NCBI GenBank assembly: GCA_007129405.1
Contig: SKVN01000077.1
Span: 1-41,184, forward strand
DNA length: 41,184 nucleotides
Source of the DNA: Kiritimatiellia bacterium
Lineage (GTDB): Bacteria; Verrucomicrobiota; Kiritimatiellia; UBA8416
Reading direction: 5' to 3'
Part shown: in pieces, positions 3,532 to 40,477 of the stretch
Layout of the letters: the number at the start of each line of letters is the position of its first letter
Numbering within the stretch: position 1 is the first letter of the stretch
The notes under the pieces: model-generated
What the model was told of the DNA's origin: nothing
The model's input: only the letters and a program-made list of their open reading frames with translations
Databases searched by the model: none
Translations under genes and position numbers: made by a program

Positions 3532-4567
3532 ACGCGAAAATTGGCGTAAATTATACCGCGAAAATCTGCCGATCAAGATTCTCGCTTTCGTTTTGGCCAC
3601 GGCATCCATCTATTCGATTCAACGGATCACGAACCAAACGGATGAGTTTGAAGTACCCATTCAAATGGTTGTCGAACCCGGTATGGCCGTCCTACAACAG
3701 GATGCTCGCTATGCCTACATCACCTGCCGAGGATCGTTAGAGGATCTGCGCAGACTGGACCAAAGCCAGTTGCGGCTCATTGTACGCCCGCGCACCGACG
3801 GCAGAACCGGCCCCGAGCAAGTACCCATTGGTCTGCGCAACGTACATGGCGTTCCGCGTTCGATCTCCGTAACCAAAGTACGACCTAATTTGGTGCATCT
3901 CACACTGGACCGTGAAATCGAGAAACAAATCTCTGTCGCCCGGCCTGAAGTACTGGGACAACCCGCCCTGGGACGTGCTGAAATCGAGTTTTCACCCAAA
4001 ATCGTTACCGTACGAGGTCCACAACAATTGCTCCAAGACCTGAAAGTCATGCAAACGGCCCCTGTCGATGTAGAAGGAGCTGCGGTATCTTTCTCTCGTG
4101 AACTTCCCGTAGTGACAGAGGATGAAACCGGAATCCGGGAAGTAACCCCCAGCACAATCTCGGCACGCGTCAATATCGTCACAGAGCGCATCAGCCGAGA
4201 GTGGAACAACCTACCGGTACTAATCTTGAGAGCACCAGACAGCAACCTCTCCTTTGAACCCGCCCCGCCGGTTGTAAGCGTAAGCCTGCTCGGAAGCCCG
4301 CAAACCATCAACGGATTTGAGGCCCATGACATACGCGTTTTCATCGATTGCACAACCATCACCGATACGGGCGAATATCAAGTAACCGCCACCGTCAATG
4401 TCGATCGCGGAACAGACATTCGTAGCGCCATTACACCACCCGTCGTAACCGTCACGGCAAAAAAAATGATACCTATCGCTCCAGCAACGCGTGATATCCC
4501 TGATATCGGCGAAAAAACAGACCCCACCAATATCCAACAAAACACACGAGAAAAGAAAACCGAGTAA
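3521..4567 (+). CDS. cdaR: YbbR-domain protein (CdaR-like regulator of diadenylate cyclase)
   Basis: N-terminal TM segment and repeated beta-rich YbbR-like segments; overlaps cdaA stop. Confidence 0.8.
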   Translation: MLRKRENWRKLYRENLPIKILAFVLATASIYSIQRITNQTDEFEVPIQMVVEPGMAVLQQDARYAYITCRGSLEDLRRLDQSQLRLIVRPRTDGRTGPEQVPIGLRNVHGVPRSISVTKVRPNLVHLTLDREIEKQISVARPEVLGQPALGRAEIEFSPKIVTVRGPQQLLQDLKVMQTAPVDVEGAAVSFSRELPVVTEDETGIREVTPSTISARVNIVTERISREWNNLPVLILRAPDSNLSFEPAPPVVSVSLLGSPQTINGFEAHDIRVFIDCTTITDTGEYQVTATVNVDRGTDIRSAITPPVVTVTAKKMIPIAPATRDIPDIGEKTDPTNIQQNTREKKTE

Positions 4568-4586
4568 ATCCTATTTTGGAAAACGC

Positions 4587-7031
4587 ATGACGCCCACTGA
4601 AAAAATCGAATATCCTTCCAACACACGTGTCGTTGCTGGCATGCTCACAATTGCAGGCGCGCTCCTGTGCCTATTAAGTCTGTTTTCGTATGACTGGCGC
4701 GACATCTCCTTGCTCAACACCCCGCCAAACTACCCTGCCACCAATTGGATTGGACCGCTTGGCGCATGGTTCGCTTTTCTGGTATTCAACCTCGCGGGAA
4801 TCGGCGCATTCGTAATTCCGCTATGGCTATTCTCTATCGGCGGCTTATTGATTTTCTACCGGAAACAGATACGCAAAAAAGTATTCTGGATTGCCGTTAC
4901 CCTTTGCTTGCTAGCGGCCATCATCGACTTACACGGTGGTTTTTACATTCGTGAAGCCTACAATCTGACGCACGAAGGCGGACTGCTCGGCTGGTGGGTC
5001 ACGCATGGTCTATTGATCAGTTGGTTGAGCACTCTCGGGGCAGGCCTGATTCTATGGACATGCATGCTGATTGCCTTGGTCATGGCGATAGGACCTCACA
5101 ACGTATATATTGGCATCCAATATGCCATTGCAGGATCCTCCTTGGTTTGGGAATACGTCACCAGTCGTCATGCCCGACTGGATTCGCGCAACCTGGAAAT
5201 GGAAAAAGAGGCCCGATTGCTGAAACACAAACAAGCACGGCTCGAGAAAGAATTACGCAAGAAAGCTATTGCAGAAAAAATAGCAGGCAAACGCATGCCA
5301 GCCGAACCGGACACCGATTTTCCTGACGAGGCCGAACCGTCCAAGCGTCGCGTCTCCTCGGAATCCAAACCAACCCCATCTGCTTTGCGACGTGCGCTGT
5401 CGAAACCCAAACCGAAGGCTACCCCTGAAGAAGATGAGGAAACCCCGACACCGGCGCCTTTGCCGCCCCCGGTCATCGATCCGGAAAAAGCACAATTCCC
5501 GAACTATCAACTTCCACCGGTAACATTGCTGAATGCGCCTGCACGCGATGGACACAAAGGCAACCTCGCGGATAATGAAACCATTGGACATCTCTTGGTG
5601 CAAACGTTGGATGAGTTTGGCATTAGCGCTGAAATCTCGAGCATCAAACAAGGACCCGTAGTTACAAGATATGAAATCTTACCCGCTCGCGGTGTCCGGG
5701 TAGAGCGTATTGCCGCCCTCTCCAACAATCTCGCACTCGCCTTGAAAGCCCATAGTCTACGCGTGCAGGCACCCGTGCCCGGCAAAGGCGTCGTGGGCAT
5801 CGAAGTGCCCAATGAAACCGCAAAAATGGTTGTAATCCGCGATATCATCGAAAGCGATGAGTGGCGTGCCCGCACCGCACGCTTACCCCTCGTGCTAGGA
5901 AAGGACGTTGGTGGCAAAAACGTAATCGCAGATCTCGCCAAAATGCCACACCTGCTCGTAGCAGGGGCAACCGGAGCCGGCAAATCCGTCTGTATCAACG
6001 CCATGCTCTCAGGGTTGTTCATGTGCAAAACTCCTGATGAACTACGCTTGATTCTGGTAGACCCCAAAATTGTGGAATTTTCCATCTACAACGATCTGCC
6101 ACATTTGGTGGTTCCTGTCATCACCGACCCGAAAAAAGTCGCATTAAGTTTGCGGTGGGCCATTACCGAAATGGAAAACCGTTACAAAATGTTTGCCAAA
6201 GCACGCGTTCGCAACATCGAGGGATTCAATAATCGGCATACCACCACACAGGGCGAACTCTTCGCAGATGAAACGGTCGTGAAACCCAAAAAAGATGACT
6301 TGCCCGCGTCGGTACCTTACGTCGTCATTGTCATCGATGAACTGGCAGACCTGATGTTAGCTGCCGGAGCTGAAATCGAAAACAGCATTGCGCGTTTGGC
6401 ACAACTTTCGCGGGCCGTCGGAATCCATATGATTATTGCCACCCAACGCCCTTCGGTCAACGTCATCACGGGCACCATCAAGGCCAATTTCCCCGCACGC
6501 ATTGCGTTTCAAGTTGCCCAAAAAGTTGACAGCCGTACCATTCTGGATCAATCCGGTGCCGACAAATTACTGGGCCAAGGTGACATGCTATATCTACCAC
6601 CCGCTTCCAGCAAACTCATCCGCGCCCAAGGCGCCATGATCACAGATGAAGAGGTCGAACGTCTCGTCAACCATATGAAAGAACAAGCAGAGCCCGCCTT
6701 TGAAATGGAAATCAAAAATAAACTCGAAAAAAGCGCTACAGCGGCGGAATCCATCGATGACGGCGAAGATGATGAACTTGTGGAACAAGCCGTTGCGATT
6801 ATCCGCGAAACCCAGCGCGCATCCACATCATCCCTCCAACGGCGCATGCGCATTGGCTACACACGGGCTGCAAGAATCATCGACATTCTAGAAGAACGTG
6901 GTATTGTAGGGCCACCTTGTGGAGCAGGCCCCCGTGAAATCCTGATCGACTTGGATGTCGAAACAGAAGACGCTGTCCTAGAGTCACAGGACGCAGACCT
7001 AGATTTCGAAAACGACGAGGAAGATAAATAA
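4587..7031 (+). CDS. ftsK: DNA translocase FtsK/SpoIIIE
   Basis: Multi-TM N-terminus, charged/Pro linker, motor with GATGAGKSVCIN and DELADLM, C-terminal gamma winged helix (SSLQRRMRIGYTRAARIID); ATG at 4587 preferred over the longer ORF start at 4491. Confidence 0.96.
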   Translation: MTPTEKIEYPSNTRVVAGMLTIAGALLCLLSLFSYDWRDISLLNTPPNYPATNWIGPLGAWFAFLVFNLAGIGAFVIPLWLFSIGGLLIFYRKQIRKKVFWIAVTLCLLAAIIDLHGGFYIREAYNLTHEGGLLGWWVTHGLLISWLSTLGAGLILWTCMLIALVMAIGPHNVYIGIQYAIAGSSLVWEYVTSRHARLDSRNLEMEKEARLLKHKQARLEKELRKKAIAEKIAGKRMPAEPDTDFPDEAEPSKRRVSSESKPTPSALRRALSKPKPKATPEEDEETPTPAPLPPPVIDPEKAQFPNYQLPPVTLLNAPARDGHKGNLADNETIGHLLVQTLDEFGISAEISSIKQGPVVTRYEILPARGVRVERIAALSNNLALALKAHSLRVQAPVPGKGVVGIEVPNETAKMVVIRDIIESDEWRARTARLPLVLGKDVGGKNVIADLAKMPHLLVAGATGAGKSVCINAMLSGLFMCKTPDELRLILVDPKIVEFSIYNDLPHLVVPVITDPKKVALSLRWAITEMENRYKMFAKARVRNIEGFNNRHTTTQGELFADETVVKPKKDDLPASVPYVVIVIDELADLMLAAGAEIENSIARLAQLSRAVGIHMIIATQRPSVNVITGTIKANFPARIAFQVAQKVDSRTILDQSGADKLLGQGDMLYLPPASSKLIRAQGAMITDEEVERLVNHMKEQAEPAFEMEIKNKLEKSATAAESIDDGEDDELVEQAVAIIRETQRASTSSLQRRMRIGYTRAARIIDILEERGIVGPPCGAGPREILIDLDVETEDAVLESQDADLDFENDEEDK

Positions 7032-7033
7032 CC

Positions 7034-7753
7034 ATGGCCATTGGACCCATTTTACGCGAAGCGCGCCAGAACAAACAGCTCACAACCTCGCAAGTGGCAG
7101 AAATGACGCGCATGAAGGTACAGATTGTTGATGATCTGGAAAACGATGATTTCCATCGTATTGCGGCTACCATCTATGGCAAGGGATTCATTAAACTTTT
7201 TGCAGAATGCGTAAACCTGGATCCCGAACCGCTGATTGCAGACTATATGGAGCAAGTCGGCACGCCGCAGCCCCCCAAGTTACCCAAGCAAAAACCACAA
7301 ACGGAACAAGCACCGCAAACGCAATCTGAAGCAAAATCGGATTTTGCGGAAAATATGCAACCCCCCGAGGAAGAATCCTCCGATGACCTCTTTTCGTATG
7401 CCGTACACAACCAACAACGCAAGCAGAAGCTGTCCACGGAAAAGACACCTTCTGTTAACACCCATAGAAACCTGCAAGAAACACACAAGTTGCTCGCCAC
7501 CAAATTAAAACAGGCCGGCCAGCAGGCTAAAGGTCTATGCACGCGGGGATTGGAAATTATCGTAAAACGTGTTACGGAAGCAGGCGAGCATGACACATGG
7601 ATTCAGCGGAGCTTGATAGCCATCGGCATCCTGGTGATTATCATGATACTCATCCCCTTGGTGCGCATGATGTTCGCACCACGCGATGCGGCCTCGCTAC
7701 CAGACAATGAACTGATCCTTTTTGTGCCCCCTCCGGAACCGTATCTTGACTGA
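7034..7753 (+). CDS. Helix-turn-helix / single-TM protein, RodZ-like
   Basis: N-terminal Xre-type HTH (ILREARQNKQLTTSQVAEMTRMKVQIVDDLEN, IYGKGFIKLFAE) and a C-terminal TM helix (IAIGILVIIMILIPLV); position after ftsK. Confidence 0.75.
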   Translation: MAIGPILREARQNKQLTTSQVAEMTRMKVQIVDDLENDDFHRIAATIYGKGFIKLFAECVNLDPEPLIADYMEQVGTPQPPKLPKQKPQTEQAPQTQSEAKSDFAENMQPPEEESSDDLFSYAVHNQQRKQKLSTEKTPSVNTHRNLQETHKLLATKLKQAGQQAKGLCTRGLEIIVKRVTEAGEHDTWIQRSLIAIGILVIIMILIPLVRMMFAPRDAASLPDNELILFVPPPEPYLD

Positions 7754-7773: not shown

Positions 7774-8760
7774 CTACTCTTCTATGCGCACGGGCGTGCC
7801 AGAAGGAATATACACGAATAGTTCTTCAACCTCTCCGTTAAGCATCCGGATGCAACCGGCACTCTCTTCATGTCCAATGCTCTGAGGCTCCCATGTGCCA
7901 TGAATGCCATACCCTCGCACCCGGGGCGTATCACCGGTAGCTTCAATCGAAAGCCAACGCGTACCCAACACATTATCGGGATGCCCGAAGGGCACTTCCT
8001 GCCCATCAGGTGGCCACCAGGATGGTTCCACAATTTTGTCCCGTATCACAAACGTCCCGACTGGTGTCTTCCCAAACTCGCCTGTACCTACACGATAACG
8101 TTTAAAGAATTCCCCGTTCAAATATACAACCATATCACGCCGGGTCTTGTTGGCCACAATTTCAAAATCCCCGCCGAAAACCAACAAGCGGTCTCCTATC
8201 CGAATACGGTTCGGATTGGAGATATGGTTTCCACGTTGAATCAAATCCACCGTTGTCCCAAATCGCCGGGCAATCAAACGCAATTGATCCCCGCTACGAA
8301 TAATATATTCCTCTTTTTCTGGCATCGCGCGCGGTGAGAAAATCAAGTCGATATGAACCGCTCCGAGTTCTTTCTCGATCTTCGACTGTATCGCCTCATC
8401 CGTTGCAAGCGACAACGCACGCTGATAGCGTTCGCGCGCGGCCTGCAGACGATCTGCCTGACGCAACTGTGCCGCCTCTGCCATTAGCTCGGAAATATCC
8501 CCAGGCATGATCACCGCGGCCGGTTCTACCGCTGACAGCGAAGCTTGTCGTGATTGCCGCTCGGAACGCCGCGTACGCGTAGAGGCCTCTTCTGGTACGG
8601 CTGCTACATCAATGCCCTCAGATATATCCGATACACGAGCTGGACGCCGCACAAACCAAACGATAAACGCTATCAATAGAAGGGCAAACACTGCCGGTAG
8701 CCAAGGGCGATGCTTGGGAGCACGATAATTACTGAATTCTTTCACTTTCATGCCGCACAC
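7774..8760 (-). CDS. LysM-domain L,D-transpeptidase (YkuD family), membrane anchored
   Basis: N-terminal TM, LysM (YIIRSGDQLRLIARRFGTTVDLIQRGNHI), YkuD core with IHGTW...ESAGCIRM catalytic motif. Confidence 0.92.
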   Translation of the reverse strand: MCGMKVKEFSNYRAPKHRPWLPAVFALLLIAFIVWFVRRPARVSDISEGIDVAAVPEEASTRTRRSERQSRQASLSAVEPAAVIMPGDISELMAEAAQLRQADRLQAARERYQRALSLATDEAIQSKIEKELGAVHIDLIFSPRAMPEKEEYIIRSGDQLRLIARRFGTTVDLIQRGNHISNPNRIRIGDRLLVFGGDFEIVANKTRRDMVVYLNGEFFKRYRVGTGEFGKTPVGTFVIRDKIVEPSWWPPDGQEVPFGHPDNVLGTRWLSIEATGDTPRVRGYGIHGTWEPQSIGHEESAGCIRMLNGEVEELFVYIPSGTPVRIEE

Positions 8761-8796
8761 CCTAACACGCTCGCATCAACAGAATCACGAAAAAAC

Positions 8797-10599
8797 TTAT
8801 AATCCTAAAAATGTCCGGAAGGGTACCGGTTGACCGTACTGTCGGGCCACACGGGACATTTGCCGTAAATAACTTCGGTCACGGGTTGCCGTATATTGGG
8901 CAATTAAACTATACATTTTCTGCTGACTCCAGCCATCCCGAATAGAACCATCACCTTCTCCCGCACCCTTCACAGGATAGGCCAGATCAAAAACCATATC
9001 ATGCCGTTGGGCCCCGGCACGACCAGCGGCATGAAACACAAGCCGCTCTTCGCGCAACGGGTAACGACCATACAAAACCAACGGACGATCGAGATACAAA
9101 TTACCAGGACGCCGCGGAAAGCCCTCTACCGCGGTCTCCACACCAAATTGCACCCGTAAATCTGCGAGCACCGGACGACTCACAGAGCGAATAACATCTT
9201 CCAAGACCTCCGGAATATCCCAACGGCCCGTGCGAACATAGGTAGCATCGCCCATATTAAATCTACTCAACATTTCCAGCAGGTACATGTTGGCGTGAGC
9301 TGCCACACCAAAAGAGAAAATGGACATCCTGCCTGCATTGTCACGGGTAAACTGTGCAATCACCTCCGTATTATCCGTCACCCCGCTATGCATCAAACCA
9401 TCCGTAGCCACAATTACAATCACAGGACGATCCGGATCCGTGTCCAGCGCAAGAATATCTCGCATCGCAGCTAGAAAATCTGTATTGCCGCCAATCTCCA
9501 TGGATGCGAAATACTGACGAGCCGCAGCATCGGTTTCCGTACCGCGATACACCCACTCGGAAAATGCGTAGGTCGTGCGGTCAATAAACGTAGCCACATT
9601 GAACCGGTCTTGAGGACCAACATAGGCGAATCCACGACGAAAACCCTCCCGGCAAAAATGCAACCGCCGTTCGGCAATCGTGGCAGACGTATCTTGTACG
9701 AATAACACATCCTTTGGCATCACCGGCAGCACATCGGCACCTACACGATCAATCGTTAAACGAAAATAGCCATGCGATTCCCCCGGTAGCCTGAACGTTT
9801 CCACTTCCGCAACAAGCGTTCTTTCAATCGGATCCGCATCGGTGATAGCATCCGGATCCTCTATAAACAGATCGGCAACAGCTTCCCCCTCTAGGGTTCC
9901 AACCCCTGTTGCTTCTGTCAGCATCGCCGAAGGCGGTGGCAGGGGCCCCATCCCCTCCGGAATACCGCTAACAGCAGGCGCATGTAACCGCGATATACCA
10001 TCCGTAAAAGCGGGCATATCTGCAGTCGCAATGGGCAATACGATGTCCGGCGCATCGGGCACACGCTCAATCATCGGGATCGTACGACGCGGTAAAGACG
10101 TGTCGGGCCCATGTACGATTTTCGTTTCTATGGCCGCAATCTCCTGTCGTGGCTGCCACGGAATGGCAAGGGGTGTGGATGCAACCTTTGCTAATGCAGC
10201 CAAATCCGGTTCAACCTCTGGCGAACGCATCGCCGGGGGTTCAATGGCCGCAGCATCCGGGGGAACCTGAAGCCTCGATATGGGAAGTCCCATATCTACA
10301 CCCGTAGTTGGCTGCAAGGCTTGCACGCTTTCCAAAATCGGCGGCCTGTCTTCCGGAAGTTCGACCTGATCAATCACCATCGCTTCAAATCGACGCGTGG
10401 GAAGATCATGCGGTGCGGACATAACATGCGAAAAATCCACACGCGATGCAATCCAAGCCACACCAGCATGAATCACAACCGATGCCAAAGCAGCGAGAAT
10501 CGCCAATAGCCACTGGCCATGCAGCTTCGTGTCTACTTCCCAGCCCGTAAAACCAAGATCTTCACCCATGGGCCGTGTTTTAGCTTTCAAAGTGCCCAT
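8797..10599 (-). CDS. VWA (VIT/inter-alpha-trypsin-type) protein with TonB/TolA-like N-terminal TM and Pro-rich linker
   Basis: MPKDVLFVQDTSATIAERRL, GGNTDFLAAM, VIVATDGLMHSG (MIDAS-like positions), VARQYGQPVPFRTFLGL C-terminus; N-terminal LLAILAALASVVIHAGVAWI contains SxxxH. Confidence 0.85.
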   Translation of the reverse strand: MGTLKAKTRPMGEDLGFTGWEVDTKLHGQWLLAILAALASVVIHAGVAWIASRVDFSHVMSAPHDLPTRRFEAMVIDQVELPEDRPPILESVQALQPTTGVDMGLPISRLQVPPDAAAIEPPAMRSPEVEPDLAALAKVASTPLAIPWQPRQEIAAIETKIVHGPDTSLPRRTIPMIERVPDAPDIVLPIATADMPAFTDGISRLHAPAVSGIPEGMGPLPPPSAMLTEATGVGTLEGEAVADLFIEDPDAITDADPIERTLVAEVETFRLPGESHGYFRLTIDRVGADVLPVMPKDVLFVQDTSATIAERRLHFCREGFRRGFAYVGPQDRFNVATFIDRTTYAFSEWVYRGTETDAAARQYFASMEIGGNTDFLAAMRDILALDTDPDRPVIVIVATDGLMHSGVTDNTEVIAQFTRDNAGRMSIFSFGVAAHANMYLLEMLSRFNMGDATYVRTGRWDIPEVLEDVIRSVSRPVLADLRVQFGVETAVEGFPRRPGNLYLDRPLVLYGRYPLREERLVFHAAGRAGAQRHDMVFDLAYPVKGAGEGDGSIRDGWSQQKMYSLIAQYTATRDRSYLRQMSRVARQYGQPVPFRTFLGL

Positions 10600-12974
10600 G
10601 CCTGCCTCGCTTTCTCTGCCCAGATACTGTCTGGATAACGGTCCGACAATTCCGACACCACCAGCATCACGTCATCCCGACGATCTTGCGCATCAAACGA
10701 TACTGCCGCATAATATAAACTCTCCGGCACCAAGATCGGGTCATCATACAAAATACCCACACTCAGAAACAATCGGGCGGCCTCATCAGGCTGCTCTTTG
10801 GCAAGCGCAACCTTACCCAAGCCCACCAGAGATCGCGCTCGTACCGCATCCGCCTCATCTCCGACAGCAAGCGAAGAAACGCGACGCAAATATATGCCGG
10901 CATCTTCTACTTGTTCCTTTTGCAAAAGCAAAAGCCCCAATTGCAGGGCAGCTTCCCCCGCATAGATGGTCCGCGCATCGATTGCCAACGCTTTACGCCA
11001 CGCCGCCTCTGCTTCCGCATAAGCCTCTAAACCCATGTGTGCCCGCCCCAACAACGCCTGTCCCGATTGTTGCCAGGCCGGATCCTCCTGCCCTGCCAGC
11101 AAAGCCGCCACTGCTACCATTTGCTCGTATTGTTCCTTGGCGCCATGATGGGCAGCAATCCATTCCAACAAGCCAGGCGAGAAACGTTCACGTATAGGCG
11201 AGGCAATCAGTTCATCCAGCAAGAAAACCGACTCGGCAGACGCATCCAACCGTTGCAAGACCAACCCCAGATGGAACTGCGCATCACGTCGCAAATCATC
11301 ACGTGGCGCAGACTCCCATGCTTCCCGCAAAAGAGACTCTGCCTCTGCATAGCGCCCAGCATCAAAATGCAACATGCCTTGCCAATACCGACTATCAGCC
11401 AGATAACGGCTCTCCGGATATAGCCGGAGCAATTCTGACAATGTCGCTATCGCATCCCGATTGCGGGCCAATCGAATTTCTCCCATCGCCTTCTGATACA
11501 AGGACTCCTCTACCAAAGCATCCTCCGGATATTCCTGCACCAGTCGACGCCAATCTCGCACGGCCTCATCATGTGCGCCAGCTTGTGATAACGCATATCC
11601 TGATGCAAACAGTGCCTGTGAGGCCAAAGGATCATTTGGAAATGTATCCACGAGTTGCTGGTAGAATTGCGCCGACTCGCGATAAGCCCCCTGCAAACGC
11701 AAATGGTGTGCCAGTCGATATAACGCATCCCGCGTGCGCTCCGATATTCCATCCTCACGCACAACCATACGATAGTGCTGCACCGCTTCTGCCGGACGCT
11801 GCAGAGCTGCGTAGGACTCGGCCAGTAACCAATTCACGTCCTTGCGCTTCTCCTGAACCATCCGAATGGTATCGGCCACACGAATGGCGGCTTCATACTG
11901 GCCTGCCTGGTAATATGCCACGGCCAACTCATACCGCGCAGCATTCGCAAACCGACTACCCGGAAAACGCGCCAGCAAAACATCGTACGTTTGCGTAGCC
12001 GCATCCGTCTGCAATAACTGCCGCTGGCTATTCGCCTTGATATACAACCACTCGTCTACCTTTTCGCCATCTTCCGCATCCTCTAACGCCATCTGCACTA
12101 CGGCAAAAGCATCCGCATACAAACCCGCACGTAGAGCCGCCCATGCTGCTTGCAACCGCGCATCATGAGCCCGAATATCCTCGGGAAATGTACGCAACAA
12201 GGTGCGGTATAGCGCGGCAGCTTCATCAAAAGAAGCACTCCGAAAATACATGTCCGCCTTTTGAAAAAGAACTTCGGCCCGCAGCCGATCGGTACCGGCA
12301 GACTCCCGCGCTAACCGGTAAAACCCCAGCGCCTCAGCAACAAGAGCAGAATCCCATTCACCTTTTTCGGCCAACGTCCGGGATAGCCGATCACGGCGAA
12401 TGGCGGATCGTTTCATCAAGGCAAATACCTGAAATTCATTATCGGGATGCTTGTCAAGCAACGTTTCCCATATGGCGTCTGCCGCATGCAACTGACCGCG
12501 GTGATAGAGCACCTCGCCAAGATAGTAGCGCGTAGCTGCAGCTAGATCCGGCTCAGGATCGGACGCCAATATTGCCTCGTAATGTGCTTGTGCAGAATCC
12601 AGATCCCCGGCATCCGCATACAGCCGAGCACGCCGATACGCCGCCCGCAAACGATATGGACTCTCCTGAAAGCGGGAAACAACCCACCCATAATACTGGG
12701 CCGCAGTCGTATAGTCTTGCAGCAAACGCAAACCTTCCGCCAACCGGAAAGTGGCGACATCATTGCGATCACCGTCAGGAAAGGCTTCCAGAATAGCGGT
12801 ATATTCGCGTACGGCTAAATCATACATTTGCCGGGCAAACAAGCCATCTGCAAAACGTAGACGGTCCGCATAGTCATCTTCCAGCGCACCGGTATATGTT
12901 GTAACCGCCAGCAATCCAATACCCATCATGGCAACAGGGCGGCGTAACCATCTTCTTGCCATAACTACCCTCAT
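10587..12974 (-). CDS. Exported multi-TPR repeat protein
   Basis: Probable signal peptide and many TPR-like repeats (YYQAGQYEAAIRVADTI, LYPESRYLADSRYWQGMLHFDAGRYAEAE); ATG at 12974 overlaps exbD stop as ATGA. Confidence 0.85.
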   Translation of the reverse strand: MRVVMARRWLRRPVAMMGIGLLAVTTYTGALEDDYADRLRFADGLFARQMYDLAVREYTAILEAFPDGDRNDVATFRLAEGLRLLQDYTTAAQYYGWVVSRFQESPYRLRAAYRRARLYADAGDLDSAQAHYEAILASDPEPDLAAATRYYLGEVLYHRGQLHAADAIWETLLDKHPDNEFQVFALMKRSAIRRDRLSRTLAEKGEWDSALVAEALGFYRLARESAGTDRLRAEVLFQKADMYFRSASFDEAAALYRTLLRTFPEDIRAHDARLQAAWAALRAGLYADAFAVVQMALEDAEDGEKVDEWLYIKANSQRQLLQTDAATQTYDVLLARFPGSRFANAARYELAVAYYQAGQYEAAIRVADTIRMVQEKRKDVNWLLAESYAALQRPAEAVQHYRMVVREDGISERTRDALYRLAHHLRLQGAYRESAQFYQQLVDTFPNDPLASQALFASGYALSQAGAHDEAVRDWRRLVQEYPEDALVEESLYQKAMGEIRLARNRDAIATLSELLRLYPESRYLADSRYWQGMLHFDAGRYAEAESLLREAWESAPRDDLRRDAQFHLGLVLQRLDASAESVFLLDELIASPIRERFSPGLLEWIAAHHGAKEQYEQMVAVAALLAGQEDPAWQQSGQALLGRAHMGLEAYAEAEAAWRKALAIDARTIYAGEAALQLGLLLLQKEQVEDAGIYLRRVSSLAVGDEADAVRARSLVGLGKVALAKEQPDEAARLFLSVGILYDDPILVPESLYYAAVSFDAQDRRDDVMLVVSELSDRYPDSIWAEKARQAWAL

Positions 12975-13387
12975 GCATCCGGTTCTGTCGTGGCAAAAGA
13001 AATATTCCATAAATCCGATTGCCGACACAAATCGAGCGTGCGAATCAAATATTCATATGGCGTTTGCAAGTCTGCCCGTATGACAACTGGCTGGCCCGGA
13101 TATAATGCAACAATGCGCGCAAGCAGGTTCTGCAAACCTTCCCGGTCCAGTTCCCGCTGATTGACCACATGTGTGCCATCCGCACGTATGTTGATAATGA
13201 TCTCCGAGGGCAACCGGCTCGGCATTTCTCCCGTCTCGGCTGTCGGTAGCGTGATGTCAATTTCCGTTTCCCACTGTGCATAAATCTGCGCCGCAATAAA
13301 AAAACACAGCAGCAGGAACATGATATCAATCATGGGCGCCAATTGGAACCCCACACTGGGACGTTTCGATCGACCGCGAAAATTCAT
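12971..13387 (-). CDS. exbD: Biopolymer transport protein ExbD/TolR
   Basis: FQLAPMIDIMFLLLCFFIAAQ with the conserved TM Asp, periplasmic ExbD domain. Confidence 0.93.
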   Translation of the reverse strand: MNFRGRSKRPSVGFQLAPMIDIMFLLLCFFIAAQIYAQWETEIDITLPTAETGEMPSRLPSEIIINIRADGTHVVNQRELDREGLQNLLARIVALYPGQPVVIRADLQTPYEYLIRTLDLCRQSDLWNISFATTEPDA

Positions 13388-14109
13388 GCGCTCGGCCTCC
13401 TGCTTAACAACAACATCAACATCTCACTGGCATTGACTTCCAGCAAGGATACCAGCTTTGCTGCCCTACGACGAAAATAGGCATAAAAGGCCATGGCAGG
13501 AATCCCAACTACGAGCCCAAACGCCGTTGTCAGCATAGCCTTGTTCACTCCAGCAACCAATGCCGTAGGGCGAACGACAGCAATCTCCCCGGAAACAGCG
13601 TTAAAAGCAAGCATCATCCCGAAGACGGTACCCAACAATCCTACCATGGGAGCCACAACCGCAACATCCATCAGAAACTGCGTCTGTCCCTCCATCGACT
13701 CCGATTGGCGTGCCCCCTCGGCTTCAACCACATCACGTAGGAGCATCGCATCTGCCGCAGGTACGTTTTTAATATGCTCCAATGCTGCCAAAATGACAGC
13801 ACTCAGCGGACCCCCGCGAAAACTACATATACGTCGGGCATCCTCCAAACTGCCTGAACGCAACTTCTCGATCAGTTCCGTTCGAAAAGGTTCCGGAACA
13901 ACAGCCCGCCGCCGCAAAATAGCAAAAAAATACAGTATCAACGCCAACGTCAATACCGACATCATCGCCAACACGACATAAACCGTTTTAATGGCCGCGT
14001 CCATCGCCGTCTCAAAGGGAATGCCGCTTCCACTCTCGGTTGCCATAGCAAAACCGGGCAACACGATCATCCCTACCCACACCCAACACCATATCATCCG
14101 CTTTTGCAT
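13384..14109 (-). CDS. exbB: MotA/TolQ/ExbB proton-channel family protein
   Basis: VAPMVGLLGTVFGMMLAFNAV and TTAFGLVVGIPAMAFYAYF TM motifs; ATG at 14109 preceded by GGGAG (ORF track starts at a TTG at 14121). Confidence 0.92.
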   Translation of the reverse strand: MQKRMIWCWVWVGMIVLPGFAMATESGSGIPFETAMDAAIKTVYVVLAMMSVLTLALILYFFAILRRRAVVPEPFRTELIEKLRSGSLEDARRICSFRGGPLSAVILAALEHIKNVPAADAMLLRDVVEAEGARQSESMEGQTQFLMDVAVVAPMVGLLGTVFGMMLAFNAVSGEIAVVRPTALVAGVNKAMLTTAFGLVVGIPAMAFYAYFRRRAAKLVSLLEVNASEMLMLLLSRRPSA

Positions 14110-15544: not shown

Positions 15545-16741
15545 TCATTCTTCACGCCAAATACCGCCATGTTCTTCCACTTCGCCAGCAAAAAGCCGCA
15601 ACGCCAAAAGGGCCCTTTGCTCCTGTGCTTCCAATTTTTCCTGATCTTCACCAGCCACAACTCCGTCCAGAACATCCAAAAAACCATCCACCACGGCCCG
15701 GAACCTTTCCGGCCGCCCCTGCGCGACAAACTGCAAGGCATTGCGTCGATGGTTGATCGCCTCTGCAAACCAAACATTTTTTCGATGTGCACCAAGTTCC
15801 GCCAAAGGAGCACCCCATGTAATCGCCGCGTTTCGAGGAATACCATGTTGACCGGGGTAAAGCAATAGCAGCTCCTGCAAATCATCGATGTGAAATTGCA
15901 TCACCACACCTACACCGCGTACAATCCGCCGCTGCGCCAAAAGCCAACGATCCAATTGTTCATCCGGATCCGGACCCACATAGGATTGCAACCAATGCAC
16001 ATCTACTTCCTCCTGCGCGGCGAATGCCCGAAAGACATGCCTGACGATACGCGCAGAAGAAGGGCGGGTCACCAACCAATACACCACAGCTCCCGCAAAC
16101 ATCGCGTCTTCCGGATCTAATCGACCCTCCTGTGACCGCCGCAAAAACAGCCCAAGAGACGGAACATGCCCGGCACGCCATAACCGATCCACATATTCGA
16201 GCGTAATTTTAACGTCATCCGCATGCAAAACTTCAACCACACCCTGCCAGAACCAGGAGGGCGGACGAAGAATGTTTCCATCATTCTCATGTATCACATA
16301 AACAGATAACAAAGCCAAAATGAGTGCCTCATGTGCTGCCTGGACATGCGCACTCTCGTAATCAGGCAAGGTAATCCGGTGAATGACATCGCCAAGCACT
16401 GTCTCTGTTCGTAAAGAAATACCTGCTGCAACAGCACCATCTCCATCTGAAGGCAAGACCTGCAACCGTATGCGTTGACGACCCCAAGGAACCGGCACAC
16501 GCAACAGTTGTTCCAGCGCCACACGTTGCTGCTGCACAGCCTCTAACAGGTACGCATTCAAACCTGCCTGCGGACCAGATACGGCAAGGGTCCGATCAGA
16601 CGAGGATGCCGTATGAAGCCGCAACAACGCCATACGCGCACGAAGCGCCGCACGCATCGCATCTTCAGCATGCCCAGGCGCAACAAAAACCATGCCCGAG
16701 AGAATCCATACCCATAATATGTGCCAACGTATCATATCCAA
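15545..16741 (-). CDS. Exported protein of unknown function, possible degenerate gluzincin-like fold
   Basis: Signal peptide (HILWVWILSGMVFVAPGHAED); HEALILALL...PSWFWQGVVEVL resembles the peptidase-MA layout but lacks a complete HExxH. Confidence 0.6.
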   Translation of the reverse strand: MDMIRWHILWVWILSGMVFVAPGHAEDAMRAALRARMALLRLHTASSSDRTLAVSGPQAGLNAYLLEAVQQQRVALEQLLRVPVPWGRQRIRLQVLPSDGDGAVAAGISLRTETVLGDVIHRITLPDYESAHVQAAHEALILALLSVYVIHENDGNILRPPSWFWQGVVEVLHADDVKITLEYVDRLWRAGHVPSLGLFLRRSQEGRLDPEDAMFAGAVVYWLVTRPSSARIVRHVFRAFAAQEEVDVHWLQSYVGPDPDEQLDRWLLAQRRIVRGVGVVMQFHIDDLQELLLLYPGQHGIPRNAAITWGAPLAELGAHRKNVWFAEAINHRRNALQFVAQGRPERFRAVVDGFLDVLDGVVAGEDQEKLEAQEQRALLALRLFAGEVEEHGGIWREE

Positions 16742-32929: not shown

Positions 32930-34114
32930 TTATCGCAAGACCGCATCGGTCAGCGAAAAGACCGGCAACAATACGGCTAGCGTAATGAGCAGGACAAAGC
33001 CACCAATCAAGAGTAAAAGCAGTGGCTCTAGCAAGGCAAGCAAACGCGCCAAGTGGTGATCAAACTGTCGATCACAACGACGCCCCGCGTGATCGAGCAT
33101 CCCGGCCAAATCCCCGCCAGCCTCTCCGACCGCAATCCACCCCGTTAAGATTTCTGCAAGCGGCGGGATCCCGTGTACAGCTTCCTCCAAGTTCTGCCCA
33201 TGTCGAACAGCGTGTGCGGCCACTTCGGCACGCTCTTCACACCAGCCGTTTCCTGTTGCTCGACCAGCTAACGCGATACCCTCAACCAAAGGAACCCCTG
33301 CCTTGGTCAATATAGCTAGCGTATGTGCAAACCGCGATGCCAGCAAATAGCGATAGACCCGCTGCCCGGGCAAACGCAACATAAAGACTTCAAGTTGAAT
33401 CCGTCTCGCAGGATCACGAAACAACTGACGAAAAAACAACACGCCCAGCACCCCGGCAACGCCAAATCCAACAATACCCCACGGGAATAGCCAACGGCTT
33501 ATCGTCAGCATAAAACGTGTAAGCGCAGGCATCGATAGAAAATCACCCGTTATCCGCTGCATACGGGGCAACAATACCCCTAACATGACCAAGGCAACCA
33601 CAATGCCCAAGGTTAGAATAAAGATAGGATAAATCATGGCGCGCTGTACACGTTCACGCAACTGCTGGTGAGATTCAATTACGTCAGCCAATTGATTGAG
33701 AACAGCATCGAGGGTCCCCGTACGTTCGGCAACCTCGATTGCCGACAATTCAAAAGATTTTGTTCCATGGGACATCTTCTCCAGTGCGGCCGCAAATCCA
33801 AGGCCTTCACGCACATGATCGCGAACACCAGATAAAACGACAAAAGCCGTATGCAACTCCGGGGTTTTCAAAAGCATCCCCAGAGCTGGAACCAGCGGCA
33901 TCCCTGAACGTAGCAAAGCCGCTAATTCGCGATAAAACATACCACGCAAAGGCTGCGGAAAATTTCCGCGTTGGGTACGACTTTCCACGATCTTGGCAAC
34001 ATAGATCTTCTGCGCGGCAAGCGTATCCCTTGCTGACTTGGCGCTTAAGGCCTCAATATGACCAGACTTCGGGGCACCCGTGTCATCATACCCCTTGTAG
34101 CTGTACGTTCTCAT
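32930..34114 (-). CDS. gspF: Type II secretion / type IV pilus inner-membrane protein GspF/PilC
   Basis: Two GspF domains with FYRELAALLRSGMPLVPALGML and FAHTLAILTKAGVPLVEGIALA; C-terminal TM. Confidence 0.94.
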   Translation of the reverse strand: MRTYSYKGYDDTGAPKSGHIEALSAKSARDTLAAQKIYVAKIVESRTQRGNFPQPLRGMFYRELAALLRSGMPLVPALGMLLKTPELHTAFVVLSGVRDHVREGLGFAAALEKMSHGTKSFELSAIEVAERTGTLDAVLNQLADVIESHQQLRERVQRAMIYPIFILTLGIVVALVMLGVLLPRMQRITGDFLSMPALTRFMLTISRWLFPWGIVGFGVAGVLGVLFFRQLFRDPARRIQLEVFMLRLPGQRVYRYLLASRFAHTLAILTKAGVPLVEGIALAGRATGNGWCEERAEVAAHAVRHGQNLEEAVHGIPPLAEILTGWIAVGEAGGDLAGMLDHAGRRCDRQFDHHLARLLALLEPLLLLLIGGFVLLITLAVLLPVFSLTDAVLR

Positions 34115-35661
34115 ACTGCAGCTGCCCGCTCGATTTCTTCCAACGTCGTAATACCGGCAAGCACTTTCTGAATACCGTCTTCTTCAAGAGGGTGCATGCC
34201 AGCCCGTAGAGCCTCTTGCCGTACACGCTCCAAATGAAAATCTGGATCTCGTACAACAGCCCGCAGGGCTTCGTTCATCGGCAATAACTCAAAGATACCC
34301 GTGCGGCCCCAATAGCCCTGCTTGCATTGCGCACACCCGACAGGTTGCCAGGCCTGCTGCCCCTGCATACGGCCAGCCAAGACACCCGCTTCATGGATCA
34401 CATACGGTTGACGGCATGACTCGCACAAACACCGCACAAGACGTTGTGCAAGAACCGCACGCACGCAAGCTGAAAGTAAATACGGCGCAATACCAATATC
34501 AGCCAAGCGCACCAATGCACCCGGGGCATCATTCGTATGCAACGTCGTAAATACCAAATGACCAGTCAACGCCGCACGTACAGCAATTTCAGCGGTCTCA
34601 GCATCACGCGTTTCCCCAACCAGAATCACATCCGGATCCTGACGTAAAATATGTCGCAATCCCGTTGCAAACGTGATGCCAATTTTCGGCTTTACTTGAA
34701 TCTGACCAATATTATCCAATTGATACTCAATCGGATCTTCGATCGTTAAAATATTGCGGCGTTCTGCATCCAATGCCCCTAACGCCGCATACAACGTAGT
34801 TGTTTTGCCAGATCCCGTTGGCCCGGAAACGATGATCATGCCATTGGGTTGGCGTAGCTGCATATGTAACTGTGCCAGACAATCAGATGTCATGCCCAAT
34901 GCGGACATGTCCAGTACCGTATGACTCTGATCCAGTAACCGCAATACCACGCGTTCTCCCTCTGCAACCGGGATCGTCGAAACGCGGACATCAATCTCGC
35001 GATCTCCCACGCGTACCCGCGCCATGCCATCCTGCGGCAGACGGCGCTCTGCTATATCCATGTGCGCCATAACTTTTAACCGCGAGACCAAGGATGTCAC
35101 CAGATGCCCCGGAGGTGCCGATTGCTCGTACAATACCCCATCAATGCGAAAACGCACGCGCAAGCGAGAGGCAAACGGCTCAAAATGGATATCGGATGCA
35201 CGCTGCCGCAAGGCATCCAGCATAATCGTATTAATGAGCTGCGTGACAGGAGCATCGCGACTGCTCAACAGCAGATCATCTCCACGCCGAACGGGAGCCT
35301 GATCCGCGAGATGCAATGCCGCAATGACATCAGAGGGCGATTCTTGGCGTTGCGCATATGCTTCTTCAATACATGACAGGAGCACATCCACCGGGGCCAA
35401 TACCGGCTCTAGCGGTTGCCCGATCAGCAGTGTCACGTAATCAAGCAAGCCCACCTTTTCCGCGCTTCCAATGAGCGCACTTGGTTCACCATGCCAGCGA
35501 ACCGGCAAAACCTCGTTCGCCCTTACCCATTCGACAGGAAGTGTCCCCAGCAACTGGGAGTCGATGACAATGCCCGAACGGTCGTCAACGAAACGCAACC
35601 CCGTTTCCGACGCCATCTGGGCAAGACGATCACTGGAAATATCATGATCATTCGGATTCAT
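34111..35661 (-). CDS. gspE: Type II secretion / type IV pilus ATPase GspE/PilB
   Basis: Walker A GPTGSGKTTTLYAAL, IEDPIEYQ, LRQDPDVILVGE, tetracysteine CLCESC...CAQC. Confidence 0.96.
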   Translation of the reverse strand: MNPNDHDISSDRLAQMASETGLRFVDDRSGIVIDSQLLGTLPVEWVRANEVLPVRWHGEPSALIGSAEKVGLLDYVTLLIGQPLEPVLAPVDVLLSCIEEAYAQRQESPSDVIAALHLADQAPVRRGDDLLLSSRDAPVTQLINTIMLDALRQRASDIHFEPFASRLRVRFRIDGVLYEQSAPPGHLVTSLVSRLKVMAHMDIAERRLPQDGMARVRVGDREIDVRVSTIPVAEGERVVLRLLDQSHTVLDMSALGMTSDCLAQLHMQLRQPNGMIIVSGPTGSGKTTTLYAALGALDAERRNILTIEDPIEYQLDNIGQIQVKPKIGITFATGLRHILRQDPDVILVGETRDAETAEIAVRAALTGHLVFTTLHTNDAPGALVRLADIGIAPYLLSACVRAVLAQRLVRCLCESCRQPYVIHEAGVLAGRMQGQQAWQPVGCAQCKQGYWGRTGIFELLPMNEALRAVVRDPDFHLERVRQEALRAGMHPLEEDGIQKVLAGITTLEEIERAAAV

Positions 35662-37567
35662 GCGGCAACAAACCTGTCTTGTTTTGCCAACGACGCCGAT
35701 ATTCCTCTTGGTCTTCCAAAGAACTCACAATCGTAGGCGTCACCAGAATGAGCAAATCATTTCGCTCCGCAACCTTTTCCGTTCGTGTAAACAACCAGCG
35801 AATCACGGGGATGGAGCCAAAAAAGGGAACCCGCCTCTCATTTTCCCGCTCATCGCGTCGCGTTAAACCGGCAATCACAATGGTGCGTCCATTTTCGACG
35901 GTTACCGTGGTTTGCACCTCACGCTTCGCAATGGTTGGGGTAAATTTTCCTTCAGGACCAGACTCTATGACGGCCTCAATGCTGGGGTTTAACGCCATAC
36001 GAATCATCCCCCCGGGAATAAAATGCGGTGTAATCTGCAGCTTGATACCAACATCCATGCGCTCGATATTTTGGATGACATCACGGGCAGTTCCTGTACC
36101 ACCCGTGATTTCTGACGTCAAAATAGGAATTTCATTCACAACACTAACTGTGGCCTCACGATTATTTTGCGATTGCAAAGATGTCTCCGACAAAATCCGA
36201 AACCGATTTGCCGTGCGGAAAGCATCAATATTCAGCAATGCGGGGAATCCCACCTGAATCTGTCCTTCGGGACCCATCGACGTTCCCTGCGCCACACCAA
36301 CACTCATGCCACGCGGGAAAACGCCTTCCTGCGCAATATTTAAAATGCCACTGGCATCTCCTAAACTGAAGCCCCCCTGCACAACCGTATCCCCGACTGA
36401 ACCCGGCGCATCCAGTGCCGCAAAATCAACGCCTAACTGCAACCCATCCGAATCGCTCACTTCAACAATCATAACCCCAATATGAATTTGTTCCGGTAAT
36501 ATATCCATTTGTTCAATGAGCCGACGCACCACTTCATAATCGCCTGGACTGGCATCGATGAGCAGCGCATTATTGGAAGGACTTGATTGAATCGCTATCA
36601 TCCGACGATCCGCCCCCTCCGCTCTTTCCTGCCGTTGCCGCAACAACGATGTCAAGGATTCTGCTGCTTCATCGGCATTCAAATGGCGTAGAAAAATAGC
36701 ATGTAGACGACCCTGCCCGGTAGGAACATCCACATCCATTTCCATAATTAATTCGCGCAACTCTTGCACTTGGTTCGCGGTTCCGGTCACGATCAGACGA
36801 TTTGCATGCGGCACCGCCACCACCGTAGCCGTTCGCCCCATGTCGCGCAGACTGCTCGCTTGACGGCTCGCAGGTAAGCGCTGCACAAGTTCTTGTGCGC
36901 GCGACACACTTTCGGCTAATGCAACATTCAACTGCCGTGCCAATTCATCAGCCTGGGCATACTGTAATGGTATCACCTCCATCACACGCGCCAGGCCTGG
37001 ACGATCTAACGCATGGAGTAATGCTGCCATACGGTGAAGCGCAGATGCCGTATCGGTAACCATGATGTGATTGGTCTCCTCCATCGCACGAACCGCTCCA
37101 CCACGTTCGGCTGCAGGCTCCAGCAAACGCGCAACATCCTTGGCCGACACATGCTCCAATTGAAAAACCTTGGTAAACGTGCCACTGGCGGGGATATCAG
37201 ATTCAGGCCCTAAAACCGTCGCTAACGCAGGCGGCCGTTCCCCTACCGGCATAATTCGGTAAAGCCCCGTTTCTTCCCGCACGGCAAAACCGGCGGCATC
37301 CATAATCGACAGAAACAACGGGAAAACCTCCGCTTGCGAAACACGGGGTGACACAACGGTTATTTGGCCAGAGATATTTTCACCCATCACAAACCGCTTG
37401 CCGGTTAATTCCCCGACAAGCCGGACAAAGGTGTCAATCTCAACACCCTCAAACGTAAAGTCCACTCTCGCATCATGGGTGGTAGAAGCCGGCACAGACA
37501 TAGCATGCCAGCACAGCACAACAGATATTCCGGCACACAGCAGTCCGCGCCCAATAAAACGTCTCAT
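35648..37567 (-). CDS. gspD: Type II secretion secretin GspD
   Basis: Signal peptide, N0/N1-type domains, secretin domain VPFFGSIPVIRWLFT, TILVTPTIV-like end. Confidence 0.95.
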   Translation of the reverse strand: MRRFIGRGLLCAGISVVLCWHAMSVPASTTHDARVDFTFEGVEIDTFVRLVGELTGKRFVMGENISGQITVVSPRVSQAEVFPLFLSIMDAAGFAVREETGLYRIMPVGERPPALATVLGPESDIPASGTFTKVFQLEHVSAKDVARLLEPAAERGGAVRAMEETNHIMVTDTASALHRMAALLHALDRPGLARVMEVIPLQYAQADELARQLNVALAESVSRAQELVQRLPASRQASSLRDMGRTATVVAVPHANRLIVTGTANQVQELRELIMEMDVDVPTGQGRLHAIFLRHLNADEAAESLTSLLRQRQERAEGADRRMIAIQSSPSNNALLIDASPGDYEVVRRLIEQMDILPEQIHIGVMIVEVSDSDGLQLGVDFAALDAPGSVGDTVVQGGFSLGDASGILNIAQEGVFPRGMSVGVAQGTSMGPEGQIQVGFPALLNIDAFRTANRFRILSETSLQSQNNREATVSVVNEIPILTSEITGGTGTARDVIQNIERMDVGIKLQITPHFIPGGMIRMALNPSIEAVIESGPEGKFTPTIAKREVQTTVTVENGRTIVIAGLTRRDERENERRVPFFGSIPVIRWLFTRTEKVAERNDLLILVTPTIVSSLEDQEEYRRRWQNKTGLLPHESE

Positions 37568-38962: not shown

Positions 38963-40303
38963 TTACTTTACGTCGCCATCTTCTCTCATGGTCTCAAGTA
39001 ATACGCGACCCTGTACACGATCCTGCTGATGCTGCTCGTCACCCCGAATGTAGATTTCAACGCGACGGTTCAACGGGTTCCCATCTTGCGGATCGTTCGG
39101 GGCACGAGGCCGTTCAAAACCAAAACCACGAGCTTCTAAACGCGAACGGTCGATTCCTCCTTGCTCCACCAGATAATTTGCAACTGAACGGGCGCGTCTT
39201 TCAGAAAGCCGCAAATTGTAATCCGCTTGCGATGTAGCCAGACGGTCAGCGTGCCCTTCTACAACAGCAGTAGACGTTTCGCTACGGCGCATGACGCGCG
39301 CAACAATATCCAAATCCTGATGATATTCAGGACGTAAAATGTCTTTGTCATAATCGAACTGGATGTACAACTCGAATACCAGCAAATCGTCATACGGATT
39401 TAGCGGATCGGTCCCATCCTCGAGCACTTCATGCCCATCCGTAACGCCACCTCGATCCGTATCCGGATTCAACGGATCCGTTCCATAAATATGAATTTCC
39501 TCATAGTCCGTCAGTCCATCAAAATCCGTATCTGGATTCAGCGGATCGGTGCCATAAATGCGCACCTCTTCATAGTCCGTTAAACCATCACCATCCGTAT
39601 CCGGATTGAAAGGGTCGGTCCCATACACTTCAATCTCTTCCCAATCATATAAGCCATCTCCGTCACTATCCACGTAACGATCAGAAACCATCACTTGGGG
39701 CGGAACCTTAGCGCCCCATCGCCAGGCAACACCAACATCAAAAGTCGCATTGGCCTCTGTTCTTTCCAATGTCATATAAACCCGCGCATCGGCACGCAAA
39801 GCCCATTCATCATTAAAATGGTACATGAAACCAATACCGGATCGCAGCATCGGATCGAAATAACCGCTCTTTCTTTTGTGCTCGTAATAGACCGCCCCTA
39901 ATCCCAGAACCAGATAGGGATCGAGTCGCTCCCACCGGGTAAAGTGATACAAGGCATCGCCGAAGAAACCAACGGCGTAGGAACGACTCGCGCCCGTAGC
40001 TTCCTCTAAACGAGAAATGCTTGCTCCTGTATCACGGTCCCTGCGATAATTCTGACGCAAGCGCGGGGCAATAAAAATACCAGCTTCATAAGACCACCAC
40101 TGCGTGTGCTCATAGCCCACACGTAAAGTCGCTTGCATGCCGTCCTGCAACTCTTCATCACCTTCGAAAATAAGCACACCTAGCCCCGGACTAAAGTACC
40201 AACGAGCTTCAATGGGAAGTTCGTCTTCCACGCCCCATACTGCCGCCCCCAAACTACATACCAAAATCGCAGCAACCAACAACGTACGATGTACATATGA
40301 CAT
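38963..40303 (-). CDS. OmpA-family outer-membrane protein with beta-barrel-like N-terminus and thrombospondin-3-type repeats
   Basis: Signal peptide, C-terminal OmpA domain ([32 protein letters not shown]), repeats [31 protein letters not shown]. Confidence 0.93.
39396..39678 (-). repeat. About four 72-bp (24-aa) tandem coding repeats
   Basis: Units [23 protein letters not shown] / [23 protein letters not shown] / [23 protein letters not shown] / [23 protein letters not shown]. Confidence 0.9.
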
Positions 40304-40477
40304 ATAACATCTCCTGCTTATCAGAGTTCTTATGCTATTACTTAAACCGAATGGTAGGAACAATAACACTCCCCCCATCCCTACGCAATCGGATTCGAAT
40401 GCTTTTGGCAAAGAATCTATGATTTAACGAGACGGGCCCCAAACAAGCTGTCATCACCCAAAACGCCACGAATCGTA

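Follow-up and report, generated by a model that had tools for sequence, protein, structure and literature searches.

The 41,184-nucleotide (nt) stretch analysed in this work (contig SKVN01000077.1 of assembly GCA_007129405.1, hereafter the window, to which all positions refer unless another locus is named) comes from an uncultured Kiritimatiellia bacterium, whose genome is 76% complete. It harbors a cluster of four genes, exbB-exbD-TPR-VWA, which probably encodes a dedicated trans-envelope force system driven by the proton motive force (PMF), with the VWA protein acting as a transducer of the TonB/TolA kind. The assignment of the ExbBD motor to the VWA protein, made from sequence comparisons and predicted structures, is based on an invariant Ser-x3-His motif, on the synteny of the genes, on the co-occurrence of transducer and motor where they are unlinked, and on the finding, in the two relatives examined, of TonB next to an ExbB and ExbD of its own.

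The exbB-exbD-TPR-VWA cluster

The genes of the cluster and the parts of the VWA gene product, including those modelled with AlphaFold 2 (AF2; confidence given as pLDDT), are the following:

13384–14109, minus strand: exbB/tolQ-like motor subunit, 241 amino acids (aa); MotA_ExbB Pfam match, 1e-25.
12971–13387, minus strand: exbD/tolR-like subunit, 138 aa, one copy in the cluster; ExbD Pfam match, 1e-25.
10587–12974, minus strand: TPR protein, 795 aa; many TPR models and TIGR02795.
8797–10599, minus strand: putative TonB-like VWA force transducer, 600 aa; Pfam, NCBIfam, alignment, AF2, and structure matches.
10450–10509, minus strand: transmembrane (TM) helix of the transducer, residues 31–50; hydrophobic peak, and AF2 helix at 24–53 with a pLDDT of ~90 around 31–50.
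10468–10482, minus strand: predicted motor-binding motif Ser40-x3-His44; invariant in 33/33 homologues, with equivalents in TonB and TolA.
10033–10158, minus strand: conserved linker box, residues 148–189; from the alignment, with low AF2 monomer confidence.
9172–9711, minus strand: VWA domain with the metal ion-dependent adhesion site (MIDAS) residues D303, S305, T307, T373, and D400.
8800–9171, minus strand: C-terminal beta-rich and helical region, residues 477–600; AF2 pLDDT mostly 86–97.

A previous sequence-only reading of this region described five minus-strand genes, the fifth coding for a LysM-YkuD L,D-transpeptidase. Its description agrees with the sequence and with the Pfam domains: exbB/exbD and exbD/TPR share ATGA overlaps, the TPR and VWA genes overlap by 13 nt, and a 36-nt gap separates the VWA gene from the GTG start of the YkuD gene. 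The absence of a TonB C-terminal domain, TolB, and Pal from the locus was likewise borne out, as none of them was seen next to the cluster among the open reading frames and Pfam matches of the neighbourhood. As best relatives, metagenome-assembled genomes labelled Kiritimatiellae were retrieved; in the closest named one the VWA protein is 62% identical and the YkuD gene is present too.

The VWA protein

The VWA protein possesses a single N-terminal TM helix containing LASVVIHAGVAW; this TonB/TolA-like helix with its Ser-x3-His motif had been missed by the sequence-only reading. Ser40 and His44 are among merely 26 invariant positions in the 731 columns of the alignment, and the motif was retrieved in all the homologues scanned, except for one gene split into two pieces. 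Its spacing is that of Ser16/His20 in TonB and Ser18/His22 in TolA, the equivalent residues, which contact ExbB/TolQ in cryo-electron microscopy structures, those of TonB touching ExbB Ser34 and Trp38 (PMC12215075). According to the alignment, no Asp is present within residues 31–50.

The helix is followed by a linker of ~200 residues (roughly 55–255), for which AF2 confidence is mostly low, and whose conserved box, at about residues 148–189, has the consensus WxPRQEI...LPRRxIPxIERVxxAPDI. The MIDAS residues are intact (D303-T-S305-A-T307, T373, and D400). The VWA_3 Pfam match (2e-5) is just below its cut-off, the alignment of the NCBIfam model TIGR03788 to residues 288–589 (3.5e-25) is below its own, and AF2 confidence is mostly >85 across the VWA domain and the C-terminal region, with a weaker block at 541–550. 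The Foldseek and HMMER matches were to VWA proteins, among them inter-alpha-inhibitor heavy chains, and not to TonB; no TonB_C was found in the VWA protein with Pfam. The C-terminal region (477–600) overlaps the stretch aligned to inter-alpha-inhibitor heavy chain H1. Distant VWA paralogues of ~700–800 aa were set aside, because ExbB/ExbD matches were not found near them.

The motor subunits and the TPR protein

The alignment of the ExbB orthologues revealed that the TM1 serine S51 and T195 are invariant and that the TM3 proline P204 is nearly so. In ExbD the pore aspartate D21 is invariant and the mean column identity is 67% (15 orthologues); this protein is the most conserved of the three aligned (VWA, ExbB, and ExbD).

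The TPR protein has a hydrophobic N-terminal segment that we read as a signal peptide; its orthologues are generally alike, and no lipobox was generally seen in these N-termini. The proposal that the exported TPR protein is a periplasmic partner like CpoB/YbgF appears plausible, with a TIGR02795 (YbgF/CpoB) score of 203 bits against a cut-off of 90, but the match covers generic TPR repeats.

Conservation of the gene order

The order exbB-exbD-TPR-VWA, on one strand, was found in 39 fetched loci, which, after the removal of double fetches, represent 29 genomes (the window's own and 28 others). Gaps within these clusters are mostly short or replaced by overlaps, and a single exbD lies between exbB and the TPR gene. 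Since the same order and strand recur in 28 other genomes, the arrangement is not due to chance; the neighbourhood conservation check suggested along with the sequence-only reading thus had a positive outcome.

The VWA orthologue is on its own in many other families, e.g., behind rho (L078 and L082), and where it has moved, ExbB, ExbD, and the TPR protein are mostly still encoded together at another locus. A divergent ExbB hidden in the post-rho arrangement was considered and rejected: according to Pfam, the proteins encoded there are Dpy19-like, CoaE, and Rho, and the motor is located elsewhere.

The L,D-transpeptidase had been thought to tie the system to peptidoglycan. Its gene, however, adjoins the cluster only in the window and in the genus-mate (L047); orthologues exist in 13 of the 14 genomes searched (own included) and are unlinked outside the genus. 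We therefore discarded it as a part of the module, whose core consists of the four genes exbB-exbD-TPR-VWA.

Co-occurrence of the putative transducer and motor, and relation to TonB

For each genome, the presence of the VWA family was compared with that of the window's ExbD subfamily. Among the first 95 genomes, 68 have both, 2 the VWA family only, 5 the ExbD subfamily only, and 20 neither; for 24 genomes added afterwards, chosen with and without VWA in the knowledge of their VWA status (hence not at random) and with their ExbD status unknown beforehand, the corresponding figures are 14, 0, 2, and 8. Overall, 110 of the 119 genomes agree and 9 are discordant (82/2/7/28; p = 2e-18), and a single count per family by majority gives 39/1/2/10 (p = 4e-8), both values being from Fisher tests, which ignore relatedness. 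The joint absence of the two in ~10 separate families is a stronger point than these tests. Completeness is <75% in four of the nine discordant genomes, so gaps may explain part of the discordance.

When 145 genomes sampled from the phylum were scanned, the VWA family turned up outside the class in eight of them, which are among the 24 added genomes. The ExbD subfamily is present in all eight, on a different contig or at least 35 kb from the VWA gene, and S-x3-H is kept in six of the eight VWA homologues.

As for TonB, TonB_C was found in 62 of 64 near-complete relatives; it was not found in the window's genome (76% complete, as said above) and is present in that of the genus-mate. These counts led us to reject the idea that the VWA protein replaces TonB. 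In two relatives (G001 and G002; loci L224 and L225) the TonB_C gene adjoins its own ExbB and ExbD genes, and in many other genomes TonB_C and ExbD matches lie within ~1 kb of each other. Most genomes devoid of the window's ExbD subfamily still have TonB.

Some of the data weigh against a transducer role for the VWA protein. The ExbB Trp touched by TonB His20 is apparently Leu or another residue at S51+4 (judged by alignment position, not from a structure). Within the SHLS pattern (S-x3-H-x6-L-x3-S), the Leu and the second Ser are replaced by Ala51 and Asp55, two positions that are less conserved in Ton as well (PMC12215075). After the TM helix, the AF2 monomer gives no confident beta strand that might represent a "motor box" (low pLDDT), and the alignment reveals a loosely conserved hydrophobic pattern in this low-confidence part. 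Outside the class, two of the eight homologues deviate from the motif, one with T-x3-H and one with T-x3-Y. Lastly, shared ancestry accounts for part of the co-occurrence, and the VWA and ExbD profiles were each built from genomes having the system.

Comparison with known systems

To our knowledge, TonB and TolA are the only established transducers for ExbBD/TolQR motors. With the Ton system, the cluster shares the motor subunits and the TM helix with Ser-x3-His; it has a VWA domain and no TonB_C, and relatives possess a Ton system in addition, equipped with a separate ExbBD. With Tol-Pal (TolQ-TolR-TolA-TolB-Pal-CpoB), it shares a TolQ/R-like motor, a Ser-x3-His transducer, and a TPR protein resembling CpoB/YbgF, whereas the TolA C-terminal domain, TolB, and Pal are not in the cluster.

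The sequence-only reading regarded the cassette as undescribed, which is not supported, as the general kind of system is already published: vWA force transducers with an SHLS TM helix, accompanied by TPR, tolQ, and paired tolR genes, have been proposed in Tichowtungia and other bacteria of the Planctomycetes–Verrucomicrobia–Chlamydiae (PVC) group on the basis of synteny and AlphaFold 3 (AF3) models of the transducer on the motor, with their function stated as not known (PMC12204202, Mol Biol Evol, June 2025). According to that paper, the tolR pair is heterologous and occurs "often", not always, in PVC bacteria, and domain II has ~100 residues in "many" members. The system of the window shares with this class the Ser-His part of the SHLS helix, the vWA domain in place of the TonB/TolA C-terminal domain, and the gene order with TPR, tolQ, and tolR genes (28 other genomes). 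It differs from the class, as described, in having one ExbD instead of a tolR pair, a linker of ~200 residues with a PRQEI box instead of a domain II of ~100, an extra C-terminal region, and a transducer gene that is often unlinked. A closer fit to the published description is locus L218, in which TPR, ExbB, and two ExbD genes precede that of a 349-aa VWA protein, aligning to the window's VWA family over 111 VWA columns only; L218 may belong to the family of the paper. In the second family described there, TPH-vWA/TolQ, a motor and a membrane-tethered vWA protein are also present, but there the vWA helix takes the place of TolR and bears the pore Asp, whereas in the window a separate ExbD has the Asp and the VWA helix has the Ser-His.

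Proposed mechanism and alternatives

According to the mechanism we propose, a presumed pentamer of ExbB and a presumed dimer of ExbD would form a stator motor in the inner membrane, powered by the proton gradient and with the VWA protein as its TonB-like arm. The N-terminal TM helix of the latter would dock on ExbB via Ser40/His44, the mostly disordered linker of ~200 residues would span the periplasm, and the VWA domain with its metal-site residues, replacing the TonB/TolA C-terminal domain, would grip a ligand located in the periplasm, the peptidoglycan, or the outer membrane. The TPR protein might be a periplasmic partner or scaffold, and the YkuD gene would be a neighbour with no part in the system. 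The earlier claim that the motor drives a VWA effector is supported as to the coupling, by the invariant Ser-x3-His, the synteny, the co-occurrence, and the separate motor of TonB in the two relatives examined; the VWA protein, however, would be the force transducer itself rather than an effector.

As to its purpose, motor, VWA transducer, and a CpoB-like TPR protein might support division or outer-membrane stability through a Tol-Pal-like envelope constriction. This is compatible with the mechanism above, being a statement on purpose, and we regard it as rather unlikely. The match of the TPR protein to YbgF/CpoB models speaks for it, as does the fact that ftsK and a gene for a RodZ-like HTH_25 protein adjoin the cluster (4491–7753, plus strand, converging on it); in the distant relatives L226 and L227 the same ftsK/HTH_25 pair lies upstream of the motor, in the order ftsK-HTH25-pgsA-exbB-exbD-TPR. 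Such surroundings point only weakly to a division or outer-membrane role and could be housekeeping; moreover, the cluster lacks TolB, Pal, and a TolA domain, and the TPR likeness amounts to generic repeat similarity.

A surface adhesion or gliding machine, with a PMF motor moving a VWA adhesin, is less probable still. The Agl-Glt machinery of Myxococcus, with its TolQ/TolR-like Agl motors and the VWA adhesin CglB, provides a parallel, and gliding was suggested for the vWA class (PMC12204202); the VWA protein of the window, however, is predicted to be anchored in the inner membrane and not exposed on the surface. Finally, it is very improbable that the window's ExbBD powers a TonB encoded elsewhere, with TPR and VWA as co-transcribed passengers: a Ton system does usually coexist, also in the genus-mate, but TonB has its own adjoining motor genes in G001 and G002, TonB_C and ExbD matches are close together in many other genomes, the window's ExbD subfamily tracks VWA rather than TonB, and the VWA protein itself bears the motor-binding motif.

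Neighbouring genes and other ExbBD-type clusters

The other features in the surroundings of the cluster are the following:

7774–8760, minus strand: LysM-YkuD L,D-transpeptidase, outside the core module; YkuD 2e-20, LysM 6e-11.
15545–16741: 398-aa protein (H398) with no Pfam match, upstream of the argininosuccinate lyase (ASL) gene.
32930–37567: type II secretion-like genes (T2SSF, T2SSE ATPase, and a GspD-like secretin).
38963–40411: predicted outer-membrane beta-barrel with TSP3 repeats and a C-terminal OmpA domain, possibly a peptidoglycan-binding outer-membrane protein, ~25 kb from the cluster.

The ASL gene is often directly upstream of exbB-exbD-TPR-VWA, and the order H398-ASL-exbB is kept in many relatives.

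Further ExbBD-type clusters were encountered. In L221 (5128–8164), L222 (4844–6343), L216 (4821–5897), and L217 (3697–5376), double-ExbD motors are followed by proteins of 360–560 aa, the C-terminal part of which matches terpene-cyclase-like alpha/alpha-toroid models (SQHop_cyclase_C, up to 1e-11); those of L221 and L222 have S-x3-H in the TM helix. These toroid proteins are possibly another kind of motor-driven transducer. The window's own genome harbors three further loci: L223 (contig C184), with the double-ExbD order TPR-274 aa-ExbB-ExbD-ExbD, ending at the contig edge and hence lacking the gene downstream; L044 (6318–10776, contig C126), a further ExbBD system with TPR (833 aa)-ExbB-ExbD and a 251-aa membrane protein without a Pfam match; and L042 (8006–10349, contig C75), where ExbB and ExbD precede a 337-aa protein with an N-terminal hydrophobic helix.

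Conclusions

The co-loss and co-retention of unlinked genes provide independent support for the transducer and the motor working together, and a distinct sub-variant of the vWA transducers is defined, with testable residues (His44, the MIDAS, and the PRQEI box). More tentatively, and short of a reading that we would favour, the system might represent a third PMF force system, of lineage-wide distribution, in addition to Ton and Tol, in which a dedicated single-ExbD motor would work with a VWA/MIDAS transducer holding its cargo by metal-dependent adhesion; such a system would be ancestral to Kiritimatiellia and the neighbouring classes, and would have been repeatedly lost as a unit.

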